From ANME-2 cluster archaeon (GTDB lineage Archaea; Halobacteriota; Methanosarcinia; Methanosarcinales; Methanocomedenaceae), in NCBI GenBank assembly GCA_014237145.1, contig JAAXOC010000081.1, forward strand, positions 1 to 57,687: 57,687 nucleotides of DNA. The letters are read 5' to 3'. Below, piece by piece: positions 18,424 through 52,515 of the stretch (its first letter is position 1; every line of letters starts with the position of its first letter). Under the pieces are notes generated by a model. It ran no database searches. It had not been told where the DNA came from and saw only the letters and a list, made by a program, of their open reading frames with translations. The position numbers and the translations under genes were made by a program.

Positions 18424-18609
18424 TTCTCAACCACAACATTAACTATTTGCTCAGATTTTACTTAAAGTTTTCAGCATAAAACAAGTTTTTATGAACCAAA
18501 GGTTTGGGTGAGTTCCATAAGGTACGAACCTTTTATGCTGTGTTATGTAATCGCTTTGGGGCGATTTTATGCACCTGTACAGGACTAAAAGTTCCGATCT
18601 TATTAACTG

Positions 18610-45999: not shown

Positions 46000-46193
46000 T
46001 CTGTTAATCTCCTTATGCTCGTTATTTTAATAATATGTTAACTATATCTAACATCAAACTATTTAAATTAATCGTTTTTGTTAGAAATATATCATATAAA
46101 AAACATTATGATATGGCTGATGAGCTGGGCAAGTAGGGGCACGCTGCTACGGGTATGATGGCGGGCGGCGAGAGGTTGTGAGAATGTAGTGGG
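46000..46193. promoter_or_regulatory. Upstream region of the DUF2178 operon
   Basis: A/T-rich sequence around 46025-46110 (taatatgttaactatatct; aaattaatcg) likely includes the TATA box of the DUF2178 operon on the minus strand. Beyond 46115 the sequence becomes G+C-rich and repetitive, with no gene. Confidence 0.35.
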
Positions 46194-46440
46194 GGCTGGA
46201 CAGCAATTCAATGTGAACTGCAGAGGTACGCAGATACACGCAAATTGACGGCTGACGTTAAGTGTTTCACCGCAAAGAGCGCAAAGTTCGCAAAGACATT
46301 GTAACCTTAACTTTGCGTCCTTTGCTGTGCAGTATTTCATAAATTTTATATTTTAACAGCCATGCCCACCACCGGCAGCACCAACAAACAACCGAGGCCA
46401 CCGCCAGCACACATCACTCCCAACCCACGCTCAGCGCATG
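46194..46440. repeat. Dispersed intergenic repeat, copy 1
   Basis: A ~245-base unit also found at 52131-52375: ggctggacagcaattcaatg at one end, a strong hairpin inside (46268-46288 pairing with 46309-46329, 21-base arms CACCGCAAAGAGCGCAAAG-like), then ttcaacagccatgcccacc-type sequence shared also with 16897-17000. Frames across it are meaningless by-products of the palindrome. Probably a MITE-like or REP-like element. Confidence 0.75.
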
Positions 46441-47745: not shown

Positions 47746-48398
47746 CTGTTAAATACTTCAGGCCATGTTCAACAAATACAAATGTGTGACCTGCGCGCCG
47801 TCCATGCATAGCTCCCCCCAACTCCATACGGGACAGGCTGCGCTGAACACTGAACCAAAACCCCGGGCAACAACCACGTAGATGGCGGTGCGTTCCTCCA
47901 CCATGTACTCGAAACTCGCTTGAATCCACAAGGCTGGCTGCCACACTGCCGCCCTGACGGGCTGCGGTGGGAGAGTGTGAGATCGGGGAGATGAAATCGG
48001 CATTCATGCTATCAGTGGCGGCGATGTGGTCGGGGATCATACGGTGATGCTCTTTGGCTATGGTGAGTGTATCAAAGTACGGCACCAAGCAGGCGTTTGC
48101 TGGCGGGGCTGTGAGGGCTGCATAGTGGGTGATGGAGTGGGGGCCGGGGTGTACGGTATGGCTGATGTGCTGGGGCTGGGTAAGTAGGGTGTGAGTGTGG
48201 GGTATGTACGGGGTCGGTATATTGTGCGTGGTGTACGAGTGACTTCATGAATCTATCACGACGTACGTGGAGGTCGGGTTGGTTGTGTGGCTGGTGTGTT
48301 TTTGTGGGGTGGGTTGGATAGCTTAATACAGGAGAATGATGAAGAGTGTAGGTGATGATTGAAGTTAGTCCGGATGGATGTAGATGGACCATGTTTGG
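47746..48398. other. Gene-free G+C-rich stretch with repeats
   Basis: No intact gene. It holds the second copy of the direct repeat with hairpin (47910-47974) and the left copy of an 80-bp direct repeat (48243-48322). A minus-strand piece at about 47990-48085 (YFDTLTIAKEHHRMIPDHIA-like) faintly resembles the end of a PIN domain and may be a relic. Long open frames here reflect base composition only. Confidence 0.5.
48243..48322. repeat. 80-bp direct repeat, left copy
   Basis: cttcatgaatctatcacgac through ggtgtgtttttgtggggtgg matches 52061-52140 at all but about six of 80 positions, same orientation. The two copies flank the cassette array and lie 77 bases before the first and 124 bases after the last attC-like site. 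Confidence 0.85.
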
Positions 48399-48454
48399 GT
48401 ATAACACCAAATATGCGTGATATGCGAAGTCGGTTCGGATATACAACGTTGTGC
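48399..48454 (+). other. attC/attI-like site at the head of the cassette array
   Basis: GTATAAC and GTTGTGC bound a 56-base segment. ATAAC pairs with GTTGT (one wobble), and inside ATATGCG pairs with CGGATAT at six of seven positions. It precedes cassette 1 and would be the upstream recombination point. Weaker than the three downstream sites. Confidence 0.45.
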
Positions 48455-48549
48455 GACATTGCCTGGCTAATTATTTCTGCATAATTACAGGTTGGGTAGC
48501 AGTTTGTGATCCAATTCGCATTGAAAATTGATTCAAGGAGGGGATTATA

Positions 48550-49293
48550 ATGAAAAACGTTATTTCAAAACTCTTTCGGTGGCAACCGTCTCAGGAGACT
48601 CTGGTCACCGTTATCGCTGGTATTGTTATGATTGGCTTATCAATAGCACTGGGAGCCACTGAGAGTATCCCATGGATAAGCATCATCATTCGTGATATTG
48701 GGCAAATATCCTTGGGAATTCTCTTTCCCCTGCTATACATCCGACAACATGGCAATGACTTTATTAGCTTTGGCTTTAGCTTTAAGAAGTGGTATCTCTT
48801 TCTTCCAATCAATCTTGTTCTTGGGATACTCCTCCTCTTGCTGTTCTTGTCAGATGTTCCCCCTCCTGATGATTTTCGTTTGGACACGCCAATTTTGGGG
48901 GTAAGTGCCTTCGTTATGTTAGCTGTGATCTTTGAGATGGTGTTCTTTTACGGTTTTCTAAGGACCATGTTTGAACGAGCGTTCGGCATTGTTCCCGGAG
49001 TTGTTCTCTGTGCCGTATTTTACTCCTTGCATCATGTGGGATTTCAGCCAGAGTTTGGCAAACTGTTTGTTGTAGGGTTGATATTTGCTGTTGTCTATCG
49101 AATAGGTAACAGTGTCCTTTTACTATATCCCTTCTTTTTGGGAGTTGGTGCTACTTATGATGTTCTCATTCAGTCGGAGGAGGTTACACCTGTTTTATAT
49201 CCTGAGATACGTACCTTGTATCTAACAGTGCTCATTCTGGGAATAATAATTTGGCTGTGGGTCAAGAGCCGACCAACAAAAAATAATATATAG
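48550..49293 (+). CDS. CPBP-family intramembrane protease (cassette 1)
   Basis: 247 residues, about seven to eight helices. The CPBP (CAAX-type, glutamic) motifs are present in altered form: FEMVFFYGFLRTMFERAFG replaces the usual EExxxR with one leading Glu plus an Arg, and FYSLHHVG carries the second-motif histidines. Predicted membrane protease, or inactive relative. GGAGGGGATTATA lies before the ATG. It is the only gene between two attC-like sites and shares their orientation. Confidence 0.75.
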   Translation: MKNVISKLFRWQPSQETLVTVIAGIVMIGLSIALGATESIPWISIIIRDIGQISLGILFPLLYIRQHGNDFISFGFSFKKWYLFLPINLVLGILLLLLFLSDVPPPDDFRLDTPILGVSAFVMLAVIFEMVFFYGFLRTMFERAFGIVPGVVLCAVFYSLHHVGFQPEFGKLFVVGLIFAVVYRIGNSVLLLYPFFLGVGATYDVLIQSEEVTPVLYPEIRTLYLTVLILGIIIWLWVKSRPTKNNI

Positions 49294-49311
49294 AAACGCC
49301 AAGTAACGGTC

Positions 49312-49399
49312 GCATAACAGCGAGTATCTGGCTCCCCTTCGCTACGCAAAAATTGGTTCCAGTTGGTCGCCAACTTCAGGTACTTGCGAAACGTTATAA
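49312..49399 (+). other. attC-like recombination site 1
   Basis: 88 bases. Outer cores GCATAAC (49312-49318) and GTTATAA (49393-49399) pair over ATAAC/GTTAT. Inner arms GCGAGTATCTG and CAGGTACTTGC pair over 11 positions with two wobbles. The spacer is 1 base on the left and 5 on the right. An internal hairpin GTTGG-TCG-CCAAC sits in the loop. The layout is that of an integron attC site and is shared by sites 2 and 3. Confidence 0.75.
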
Positions 49400-49428
49400 G
49401 CCATTTCGGCTATGCTTGATAAAGGTGA

Positions 49429-50073
49429 AGACTTATTAATAGCATTGAAATCTTTGAAAAGTATGCTCAAGAATATGATGAGTGGTTTGATGTAAATAGA
49501 TTTGCCTATGAGTCCGAAGTTCAAGCCTTAAAGAAGTGCGTTCCAAAAAATAGTAAGGGTTTAGAGGTTGGAGTGGGTACGGGAAGATTTGCAGTTCCTC
49601 TTGGTATCAGGATTGGAGTGGAGCCAGCAAAAGCAATGGCAGATATAGCACAAAAACGTGGGATAGAGGTCTATAAAGCAAAAGCGGAAAAACTTCCTTT
49701 TGATGATTCTTCTTTTGACTTTGTATTGATAGTGGTAACAATATGTTTTGTGCAAGACCCTATTCAAGCACTCAGGGAAGCAAGAAGAGTTCTTAAACCG
49801 GGAGGATATATCATTATAGGTATCATTGACAAGGAGAGTTTTCTTGGCAAACTGTATGAATCAAAGAAGAATGAGAGTAAATTCTATAGTCATGCCAACT
49901 TTTATTCTACCAGACAAGTTTTGGATTGGCTTAAAAATTTTGAGTCTGAACATATCAAAACCTGTCAGACAATCTTCAAAAACCCCAAAAAAATAACTGC
50001 TATTGAACCTGTTAAAGAAGGTCACGGAGAAGGAGGCTTTGTTGTAATCACGGCACAGAAAAAGGAGGTATAA
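49429..50073 (+). CDS. SAM-dependent methyltransferase, start uncertain or lost (cassette 2)
   Basis: The reading frame is open from 49429 and encodes IEIFEKYAQEYDEWFDVNRF, motif I GLEVGVGTGRFAVPL, the acidic IGVEPAKAM, DFVLIVVTICFVQDP and RRVLKPGGYIIIGII; it ends at 50073. No ATG precedes the family's N-terminal helix. An ATT at 49444 or a mutated start is possible. The GTG at 49573 would cut motif I and is unlikely to be used. Class I methyltransferase of unknown substrate; its start may have been damaged in cassette capture. Confidence 0.65.
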   Translation, partial: RLINSIEIFEKYAQEYDEWFDVNRFAYESEVQALKKCVPKNSKGLEVGVGTGRFAVPLGIRIGVEPAKAMADIAQKRGIEVYKAKAEKLPFDDSSFDFVLIVVTICFVQDPIQALREARRVLKPGGYIIIGIIDKESFLGKLYESKKNESKFYSHANFYSTRQVLDWLKNFESEHIKTCQTIFKNPKKITAIEPVKEGHGEGGFVVITAQKKEV

Positions 50074-50299
50074 ACATGAAAATAGGAATCGTAGTAATAA
50101 TAATCAACATATTCAGGATAAGGGGAAGTGGCTCAGGAAAATAGAGAATATGGGGCTTACAGAGGCTGCTCACGAATTAAAATAGACTATTAGAATTTTA
50201 AAAGAAGCGAATAGACATATTGAATTAGCAAATAAGAAGATGGAAGAACATAGTGTCTCAAGACCGGGAGAGATATTCAAAACACAGGAGATACATAAA
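50074..50299 (+). pseudogene. Possible relic of a small coiled protein ahead of trmO
   Basis: One frame reads KGKWLRKIENMGLTEAAHEL, then an in-frame TAG, then TIRILKEANRHIELANKKME, continuing into the trmO frame. The helical, charged character suggests a broken coding region. It cannot be assigned. No attC-like site is seen here, so the methyltransferase and trmO appear to share one cassette. Confidence 0.35.
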
Positions 50300-50821
50300 A
50301 TGTCAAATAAAAATAAACAAACAGAAAGAATCATGAACTTTGAGCCAAAGCAGATCGGAGTTATTCGAACTCCATATACTGATAATGCACCGTATCAGCC
50401 AGTGAAAGAGGACGATGGGGATTTCCGTATAGTAGTTGAGCCACAATATACCGATGGACTCTATAAACTTGCCAAATTTAGTTACATCTATGTTATTTAC
50501 CATATAGATCGTGTAAAGCAAGAGCAGTCAATGATTGTATCTCCTCCATGGGCTGGTGGTGTAAAGGTAGGCGTGTTTGCAAGCAGGTCCCCTGTTCGCC
50601 CAAATCAGATAGGGCTTAGCATTGTTCAGATAAAACACATCATAAATAACGAGATTTTTACATCGGGCCTGGATGCGTTCGATGGGACCCCTGTGCTTGA
50701 TATCAAGCCATACATAAAAGACCTGGATGCAAAATCCGATGCTAATAATGGTTGGATCGAAGAAATGGATGACCATGAACATCTCCATTTACATATTAAA
50801 GGTATTCCCCACGATTATTAG
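50300..50821 (+). CDS. trmO: tRNA (t6A37) N6-methyltransferase TrmO/TsaA family (cassette 2)
   Basis: About 173 residues from the ATG at 50300, with AGGAGA nine bases upstream; the frame is open further upstream. The UPF0066/TrmO beta-barrel domain shows IGVIRTPYTDNAPYQPV, FASRSPVRPNQIGLSIVQI and LDAFDGTPVLDIKPYI. TrmO methylates the t6A base next to the anticodon with S-adenosylmethionine. It closes the second cassette, directly before attC-like site 2. Confidence 0.85.
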   Translation: MSNKNKQTERIMNFEPKQIGVIRTPYTDNAPYQPVKEDDGDFRIVVEPQYTDGLYKLAKFSYIYVIYHIDRVKQEQSMIVSPPWAGGVKVGVFASRSPVRPNQIGLSIVQIKHIINNEIFTSGLDAFDGTPVLDIKPYIKDLDAKSDANNGWIEEMDDHEHLHLHIKGIPHDY

Positions 50822-50846
50822 ACAAAATGCAGATGAATGCAATTGT

Positions 50847-50931
50847 ATATAACTGAGCGTATCTGGCCCCGCTCCTCTTTGCGTAAATCCAGCTTGGTAG
50901 ATGGACTTCAGATACGCCCGAAACGTTAGCT
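50847..50931 (+). other. attC-like recombination site 2
   Basis: 85 bases. Cores ATATAAC (50847-50853) and GTTAGCT (50925-50931) pair over TAAC/GTTA. The arms GCGTATCTG (50857-50865) and CAGATACGC (50909-50917) are perfectly complementary over nine bases. Spacers are 3 and 7 bases, the same left-short, right-long asymmetry as site 1. The strongest of the sites. Confidence 0.8.
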
Positions 50932-50956
50932 GAAATGCCTGATGGAGGAAAGCACA

Positions 50957-51844
50957 ATGAGAAAATGCCCCTTTTACATAGTGGATGTGTTTGCTGAGGA
51001 AAAATATGCAGGTAACCAACTCGCAGTTGTCAGAGATGCAAAAGCTCTTTCTGATATTGAGATGCAACAAATCGCTAAAGAAATGAACTTTTCAGAAACA
51101 ACTTTTATTTTGTCTGATCAGAAGTGCAATGGCGGATATGATGTCCGTATTTTCACGCCAAAGGAAGAGGTGCCGTTTGCCGGTCATCCGACACTGGGAA
51201 CCGCTTATGTTATACAACACGAGATTATCAGAGAGCCTGTTGAGACAATAATCCTGAACCTGAAGATCGGGCAGATTCCTGTTACGCTCAATTACAGCAG
51301 TGAACAAATAGATATTTTATGGATGAAGCAAATGGCCGCGACTTTTGGTCGAGTTTTTGAGCCTGAGCAAATTTCGCAGGTTTTGAGCCTCAATAAAAGA
51401 GAGATGGACGATAGATTCCCTATTCAAGAGGTTTCTACGGGATTACCTTTCATTATAATTCCATTAAAGACTTTGGATACCTTGAAGCAGGCTAAGGTAA
51501 TTAGAGATAAATACTTCGAGTTGATTAAAGATACGCAAGCCAAAGCGATGCTTATCTTTTGTCCCCAGACTTATGATAAGGAAAATGACTTGAATATACG
51601 GGTTTTTGCTGACTACTACGGAGTGCCGGAGGACCCAGCTACGGGAAGTGCAAATGGTTGCTTAGCCGGGTATTTAGTGAAATACCGTTATTTTGGAAAT
51701 GATCAAATCGACATTCGAGTTGAACAGGGTTACGAAATAGGAAGGTCTTCGCTGCTTTACTTAAGAGCAAAAGACAAAGGAGAGAAAATAGATGTATCTG
51801 TCGGTGGAAAGGTTGAAATGATTGCCAAAGGAGAATTTATTTAG
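50957..51844 (+). CDS. PhzF-family isomerase (cassette 3)
   Basis: 295 residues from the ATG at 50957 (MRKCPFYIVDVFAEEKYAGN), with GGAGGAAAG just upstream; an ATG at 50942 also opens the frame. The family marks are MNFSETTFIL (catalytic-type Glu), VPFAGHPTLGTAYVI, and EDPATGSANGCLAGYLVKY. PhzF-like enzymes isomerise small acids by proton transfer; the substrate here is unknown. It is the sole gene of the third cassette, between attC-like sites 2 and 3. Confidence 0.9.
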   Translation: MRKCPFYIVDVFAEEKYAGNQLAVVRDAKALSDIEMQQIAKEMNFSETTFILSDQKCNGGYDVRIFTPKEEVPFAGHPTLGTAYVIQHEIIREPVETIILNLKIGQIPVTLNYSSEQIDILWMKQMAATFGRVFEPEQISQVLSLNKREMDDRFPIQEVSTGLPFIIIPLKTLDTLKQAKVIRDKYFELIKDTQAKAMLIFCPQTYDKENDLNIRVFADYYGVPEDPATGSANGCLAGYLVKYRYFGNDQIDIRVEQGYEIGRSSLLYLRAKDKGEKIDVSVGGKVEMIAKGEFI

Positions 51845-51854
51845 AGAGCACTTC

Positions 51855-51937
51855 AGCAAACAGTGTGCATCTGGTTCAGGCTGGGGGCCTTACTCAAATC
51901 ACATTCGGCGATTTCAGCTACACGCAAATCGTTAGTA
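51855..51937 (+). other. attC-like recombination site 3
   Basis: 83 bases. Cores AGCAAAC (51855-51861) and GTTAGTA (51931-51937) pair over AAC/GTT. The inner arms GTGTGCATCTG and CAGCTACACGC pair over 11 positions with one wobble and two mismatches; spacers are 1 and 5 bases. It follows the phzF-like stop and ends the array. Confidence 0.65.
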
Positions 51938-52515
51938 GAAATCCATATTGCCTTCGGTGAACACACACTTACCCACCCCACATCTTCTCGCGCTCACTCA
52001 AGTACACGACCTCTATCTTGCGGATGCAGTCGACTTCAGTCAGGGGTGGAAAGGCTGGGGCTTCATGAATCTATCACGACGTATGCGGAGGTCGGGTTGG
52101 CTGTGTGGCTGGTGTGTTTTTGTGGGGTGGGCTGGACAGCAATTCAATGTGAACCGTAGATGGACGCAGATACACGCTGATTGACGGCTGCCGTTAAGTG
52201 TTTCACCGCAAAGAGCGCAAAGTTCGCAAAGACGTTGTAACCTTAACTTTGCGTTCTTTGCGGTGCAGTATTTCATAAATTATATATTTCAACAGCCATG
52301 CCCACCGCCGGCAGCACCCACAAACACCCGTGGCCGCCGCACACATTCGGTCCGCAGCACCAGGGCCGGGCAGTTGTTCAAGTGCTTCAAAGGAGGGGCA
52401 TGGGGCAGACTCTTGTTAAAGAATACATAAACATATTAAGCAAGGTGGGAGATTCGTGAGTGATGAAAATTACGACAATAGAAGGAAACTATCGGTCATT
52501 TGGGAGTTTAGTAAT
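51938..52515. repeat. Gene-free stretch with dispersed repeats downstream of the array
   Basis: A short minus-strand coding-like piece (EVDCIRKIEVVYLSEREKMW at about 51970-52050) precedes the right copy of the 80-bp direct repeat (52061-52140). The second copy of the hairpin repeat follows (52131-52375; stem arms 52204-52224 and 52245-52265 with one mismatch in 21). No intact gene. Confidence 0.65.
52061..52140. repeat. 80-bp direct repeat, right copy
   Basis: Matches 48243-48322 in the same orientation. Here it runs straight into the hairpin repeat family (gcaattcaatgtgaac), whereas the left copy does not. Confidence 0.85.

Follow-up and report, generated by a model that had tools for sequence, protein, structure and literature searches.

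What kind of mobile system leaves a row of same-strand genes in an archaeal chromosome, each gene or gene pair ending in an imperfect palindrome, with no integrase beside them? This question is raised by a 57,687-nucleotide stretch of DNA from an ANME-2 cluster archaeon (JAAXOC010000081.1, hereafter the window), which is one entire contig (C81) of a 2.97-Mb genome with a completeness of 99.95% and a contamination of 1.92%. As GB37 (GoM-Arc1) and ex4572_44 are members of its order, the genome falls within Methanosarcinales in the broad sense. An earlier reading of the letters alone (the sequence-only reading) had proposed that gene cassettes form an integron-like array in this archaeal chromosome, classed as a cluster of attC sites lacking an integrase (CALIN). 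We found it very probable that the locus is a cassette array belonging to an integron-like system, one in which a XerA-type tyrosine recombinase lacking the IntI-specific I2/patch III insertion serves as integrase. The archaeal setting is borne out by the markers S15, aRF1, archaeal RecJ and methanogen-type SerRS on the window contig, and the cassette nature of the locus by a relative in which the cassette content differs, as described below.

Two covariance models, the E-values of which are rough, were used to describe the palindromes. R1 was built from the three sites of the window and one homologous site on contig C9 of the same genome, and comprises 5 core pairs and an 11-bp stem. R2 was built from an alignment (A3) of 65 sites found by R1, with training sites taken only from the window's own order. 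The palindromes that the sequence-only reading had seen at gene ends on the plus strand were confirmed at 49310-49401 (R1, for which it is a training site, 89.8 bits; R2 77.7 bits), 50845-50933 (also a training site, 84.6 and 66.2 bits, respectively) and 51853-51939 (likewise, 79.7 and 59.6 bits). Each of them lies 3' of a plus-strand gene or gene pair, and both reading and alignment gave common RYATAAC and GTTA cores, common atctgg and cttcag arms and a constant spacer.

The array opens with an attI-like site (48355-48450, plus strand; core G48448|T48449), consisting of a left element (48355-48382, ATGATTGAAG..TCCGGATGGATGTA), a degenerate first palindrome (about 48380-48404) and a second palindrome (48420-48444, ATATGCGAAGTCGGTTCGGATATAC). 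Cassette 1 (48449-49393), whose edges are the G|TT cores of attI and of the first attC-like site, encodes a CPBP/Rce1-like membrane protein (open reading frame (ORF) 48550-49293). Cassette 2 (49394-50925) carries a methyltransferase ORF (49573-50073), the remnant of a DsrE-like gene start (50076-50096) and TrmO (50240-50821; Pfam, NCBIfam), and cassette 3 (50926-51931) a PhzF family isomerase (ORF 50942-51844; TIGR00654, 229 bits). All three are on the plus strand, and the GTT core of the third site (51931-51933) forms the right end of the array. Rfam gave no match in the window, and the IntI family search gave no IntI match on the window contig. With three attC-like sites, the locus thus has the configuration of a CALIN, namely two or more attC sites spaced by less than 4 kb with IntI not nearby.

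With regard to the sites, R1 matched in 23 of 40 relatives, with 32 sites in one closed chromosome and no sites in the searched genomes of one family (f4), and R2 found sites in 87 of 295 genomes of the phylum. In A3, 88.5% of the cells were paired, compared with 73.6% after shuffling and 25-39% after sliding. The related archaeal and bacterial sites, about 205 in all, have the same build: the 11-bp stem is uninterrupted and shows strong compensatory change, the spacer is of the 1-nt/5-nt kind, and an AACTT bulge is conserved 3' of the loop side. They form directly oriented hairpins of 70-105 nt. For the sites located near integrases that had been chosen by protein alone, covariation reached 0.528, against 0.154 for shuffled and 0.05-0.11 for slid alignments; 91.6% of their stem cells were paired, and compensatory change was present in all 11 stem pairs. 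Minimum free energy folding of single sites did not recover the consensus structure, owing to competition from the long loop, so the structure rests on covariation. The sites also follow the genes closely: 173 of 190 lie directly 3' of a same-strand ORF (69 of 190 in a mirrored control), and over all loci adjacent sites less than 4 kb apart form 95 same-strand and 3 opposite-strand pairs, with a median gap of 899 bp. In the top-strand stems of the 205 sites, A.C mismatches outnumber G.T pairs (133 vs 94) despite a model trained on the top strand, an excess that is suggestive of the bottom strand being the one that folds, as in bacterial integrons.

The attI-like element is likewise not confined to the window. 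The 25-nt imperfect palindrome at the left end of the array recurs at the C9 locus, where it lies 3' of a tyrosine-recombinase relic, and in 16 of the 40 relatives, just 3' of the ends of tyrosine recombinase genes; a reversed control pattern occurred in none. Across loci the plan comprises the recombinase gene, a palindrome, a second palindrome about 40 bp further on, 5-6 nt and GTTRNNYG. The two imperfect palindromes measure 22-25 bp, and the element begins 30-120 bp after the recombinase gene, so that in complete loci attI, with its G|TT core, stands beside the integrase gene. The arms differ by system (CGAA, CGAC, CGCA) yet stay complementary. The window has a degenerate first palindrome and no integrase, and in the same-genus relative G002 a 40-bp repeat unit of attI is deleted. 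Searching for the short motif GTATCTGG told us little, as it matched about 100 times per strand. Left of the window's attI, positions 48313-48333 (plus strand, TTGGATAGCTTA...) resemble intact integrase ends such as CCACTGGATAGTTTACAGATAA and are a possible residue of the integrase 3' tail, a weak reading because the segment overlaps the end of a dispersed repeat. At another locus (L058, G038 contig 7, 3619-7640), a two-palindrome attI lies directly 5' of a type I restriction-modification-like cluster recognised by eye, after which a site was not detected.

The association of recombinase, attI and sites was assessed by scanning GTDB genomes with the recombinase protein alone, which gave 80 loci with named hosts, and then running R2 on these loci. 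Counting loci with at least 600 bp after the recombinase gene, a site lay downstream on the same strand at 35 of 41 close recombinase loci (at least 54% identity; 24 of 27 in bacteria and 11 of 14 in archaea), and at none of 15 loci of more distant bacterial relatives, e.g. Patescibacteria and Bacteroidota. The named archaeal hosts include Methanophagales (ANME-1), GoM-Arc1, Methanocellales, Archaeoglobus, Altiarchaeota and Micrarchaeota, and the others Nitrospirota, Nitrospinota, WOR-3, Caldiserica and Acetothermia. The closed single-chromosome GoM-Arc1 genome LR991653.1 (GB37; L102) carries an intact recombinase, the two palindromes, a cassette and a site, in that order.

The linked recombinase has 271-380 residues, and R120, K145, H210, R213, H236 and Y245 are invariant across 20 members; from general knowledge of tyrosine recombinases, we take these to be candidate catalytic residues. 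Its best curated model is NF040815 (archaeal XerA), at 242-247 bits against a cut-off of 220 for three intact members, whereas TIGR02249 (IntI) gave 215-230 bits, below its cut-off of 265 and as a two-block match. The alignment to XerA (4A8E) forms a single block, and that to IntI4 (2A3V) two blocks, which are separated by 60 residues in IntI4 and by 17 in the linked recombinases, i.e. about 42 fewer. A true IntI aligned with the linked recombinase leaves the same gap as IntI4. The IntI-specific I2/patch III insertion is missing here. In a tree of 65 proteins, the linked recombinases form one clade of 44 (support 98/94) with archaea and bacteria intermixed, and IntI falls in its own clade (100/100), with a branch length of 1.22. 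A XerA-like protein that is common in a family of the same order (f5) falls into a separate clade, at about 40% identity. The resemblance to archaeal XerA (PDB 4A8E, 5HXY; NF040815) thus covers sequence family, length and best curated match over cut-off; the recombinase here differs in its linkage to cassette arrays and to an attI with paired palindromes. An AlphaFold model was moderate (pLDDT 78.6, poor C-terminus) and a Foldseek ranking failed to separate XerA from IntI4; neither was used as evidence. No member at 54% identity or more was present on viral contigs (best 44%), and all phage matches were below 60% (best 43.9%). In many relatives (G022 C33, G038 C33, G026 C96 and others), only the last 95 or so recombinase residues are left, often from near residue 174.

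Cassette turnover was observed at the locus itself. In G002, the orthologous locus has flanks matching those of the window at 94% (left) and 88% (right), and attI is followed directly by the methyltransferase cassette; the CPBP and PhzF cassettes do not occur there, and homology to the right flank picks up again at the last site's GTT (CGTTAGTA(G/A)AAATCC). Since this same-genus relative has the same flanks, another cassette content and joins at the G|TT core, the window locus is a real, dynamic cassette array without a local integrase, in which same-strand cassettes are gained or lost at site cores. The gene order conserved as in an ordinary operon, named by the sequence-only reading as the outcome that would speak against it, is thereby excluded. 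The methyltransferase cassette is 94% identical in G002 and 95% identical in a genome of another genus (G010), where it lies within a nine-site array, and in both the homology starts at window position 49390, three bases from the predicted crossover 49393|49394. It runs upstream of the ORF start at 49573 to an ATT where relatives have ATG. The start region (49420-49573) has this ATT in place of the ATG of a relative in L112, which could reflect a rare start codon or early decay. The cassette of G002 contains the methyltransferase and a DsrE-like gene, and the homology of the window to it stops at 50096, 20 bp into the DsrE-like gene, in its first codons, with TrmO following. The methyltransferase plus TrmO unit proposed by the sequence-only reading is therefore best read as a later fusion.

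Complete copies of the system consist of the recombinase gene, about 30-120 bp, attI and then same-strand cassettes. The attI comprises two imperfect palindromes of 22-25 bp about 40 bp apart, followed by G|TTRNNYG, and each cassette one or two genes and a terminal attC-like hairpin site. In the mechanism that we propose, the recombinase would cut at G|TT and join attI to the attC of a circular cassette, the attC being folded; cassettes would enter next to attI, and later excision or loss would be possible. In the window, the integrase is gone and attI has partly decayed, leaving attI and three cassettes. Because the genome keeps only integrase relics, the integrase that filled the array would either have been lost since or have acted in trans.

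An ordinary CALIN, in which cassettes with bacterial-type attC sites were transferred into the archaeon and depend on an ordinary IntI in trans for any movement, would account for the core motifs, which resemble RYYYAAC/GTTRRRY, and would have precedents in the archaeal CALINs already published (Ghaly 2022, PMC9668308); a true IntI gene is also present in a relative (G022). This explanation is unlikely given that the sites are a structural family of their own: with filters off, R2 scored at most 12.7 bits on a small panel of five attC sites of IntI1/IntI2 integrons (L300 and L301 arrays), compared with mostly 40-90 bits for members. In the five IntI1/IntI2 sites, a spacer of about 5 nt lies on either side of the R-L gap and the bulges are single bases, in contrast to the 1-nt/5-nt spacer, uninterrupted stem and AACTT bulge described above, so that the canonical attC fold, as represented by these five sites, is not found here. 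Two plasmid IntI loci (Pseudoalteromonas, Kovacikia) were not used for this comparison, as a cassette array was not evident in their annotation. Moreover, the linked recombinase is XerA-like without the insertion in both domains, and the array opens at an attI of the XerA-linked type. The likeness to IntI integrons lies in the attI, the same-strand cassettes of one or two genes, the structured sites with RYYYAAC/GTTRRRY cores and the G|TT crossover, together with an attI just downstream of the integrase as in archaeal integrons (PMC9668308); the difference lies in the IntI-specific domain, which the recombinase here does not have. The CALIN label thus holds for the sites and for the lack of an adjacent integrase, and fails as an assignment to the known IntI/attC kind. 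The IntI of G022, a binned genome of the order (contig 41, L032, 3446-4360, minus strand; 326 bits, cut-off 265), could belong to a contaminant contig; it was rejected as a driver, with no convincing site of the attC-like family beside the gene and no obvious array.

Gene mobility through Xer-family recombinases is also known from the pdif modules of Acinetobacter and from integrative mobile elements exploiting Xer (IMEX), which rely on host XerCD and short dif sites. That the array consists of pdif-like modules, with dif-like double-strand sites moved by the host chromosome-resolution recombinase, is very improbable: rather than a gene between paired short dif sites, we found single-type, directly oriented hairpins of 70-105 nt with covarying stems, which would act as folding sites, and a dedicated recombinase gene at the head of each complete array. 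Dispersed palindromic repeats (of the repetitive extragenic palindrome or miniature inverted-repeat transposable element kind) placed after genes by chance were considered because dispersed repeats abound in the genome, with two of them flanking the array, and because many R1 hits in some genomes are scattered singly. We rejected this explanation as having almost no likelihood, in view of the strict strand agreement with genes and neighbouring sites, the position downstream of a specific recombinase and the cassette presence and absence bounded by cores.

Several points weigh against an array driven by a XerA-type integrase. Within this genome the recombinase survives only as relics on C9 and C96, with no intact copy, and its role here therefore rests on relatives. 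Six of the 41 close recombinase loci had no detected downstream site, and a Thermococci locus with 42% identity, below the 54% cut-off, also carries sites. The hosts are mostly metagenome bins; contamination could touch single host assignments, not the overall linkage. Given the IntI on G022 contig 41, IntI may act in trans in some genomes.

Archaeal integrons are known, mostly as CALINs, with IntI recognised by its specific domain (PMC9668308), and IntegronFinder requires that domain. I2-less systems would therefore be labelled CALINs, and integron counts would be altered by including them. The gain of the I2 helix is held to be what took integron integrases from double-strand to single-strand recombination (PMC7790495), a claim that a natural system with structured attC-like sites and an I2-less recombinase makes directly testable. 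In a review of archaeal tyrosine recombinases, integrons receive only brief mention, and a description of such a system was not found in the open-licence literature on integrons with these lineages or Xer, which makes the novelty provisional. The arrays look like an overlooked second integron type, and there is a reasonable case, less firm than that for the window locus itself, for a second, I2-less integron class across Archaea and Bacteria in which a XerA-type recombinase joins attI to a differently structured folded attC. Such a system may resemble a stage before IntI gained the I2 helix, or may have arrived at single-strand recombination independently. It may also be the reason that archaeal cassette arrays mostly seem integrase-free. 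It points to a gene-capture platform common to anaerobic methane- and alkane-oxidising archaea, Archaeoglobi, Nitrospirota, WOR-3 and others.

The cassette genes at L103, L171, L176, L170 and other loci include HicAB-like, nucleotidyltransferase/HEPN, TIR-like, STAND ATPase and methyltransferase genes; bacterial integron cassettes are likewise rich in defence and toxin-antitoxin genes. In GB37 (L109, 9588-16955), protein starts read by eye indicate a type III CRISPR-like effector cluster, which ends in a same-strand site of this family, as if placed in or beside a cassette.

Besides the attI-like element at 48355-48450, the sequence-only reading had missed a lone degenerate attC-like relic on the minus strand of the window (18458-18550), in which the core GTT is changed to TTT (R2 43.1 bits, with a rough E-value of 1.1e-6 for the genome). 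The array is flanked by dispersed repeats (46185-46404 and 52121-52340, 220 bp, 91%; 48243-48322 and 52061-52140, 80 bp, 94%) with many copies in this genome and its genus. An R2 search of the whole genome gave ten sites, on contigs C81, C9, C18, C10 and C75. Its IntI-search hits were rejected as IntI, being C-terminal relics of the Xer-like protein and a different recombinase. A second array on contig 9 (L031, 4932-6518, minus strand) comprises a recombinase relic with a TAG stop, one attI palindrome, an HNH-nuclease cassette, a site, a small membrane-protein cassette and a site. In a third array on contig 18 (L070, 5311-6892), an attI palindrome is followed by a GDPD-like cassette, a site, a second TrmO gene and a site, and TrmO genes were repeatedly found near sites of this family (also at L116, L094 and L098).

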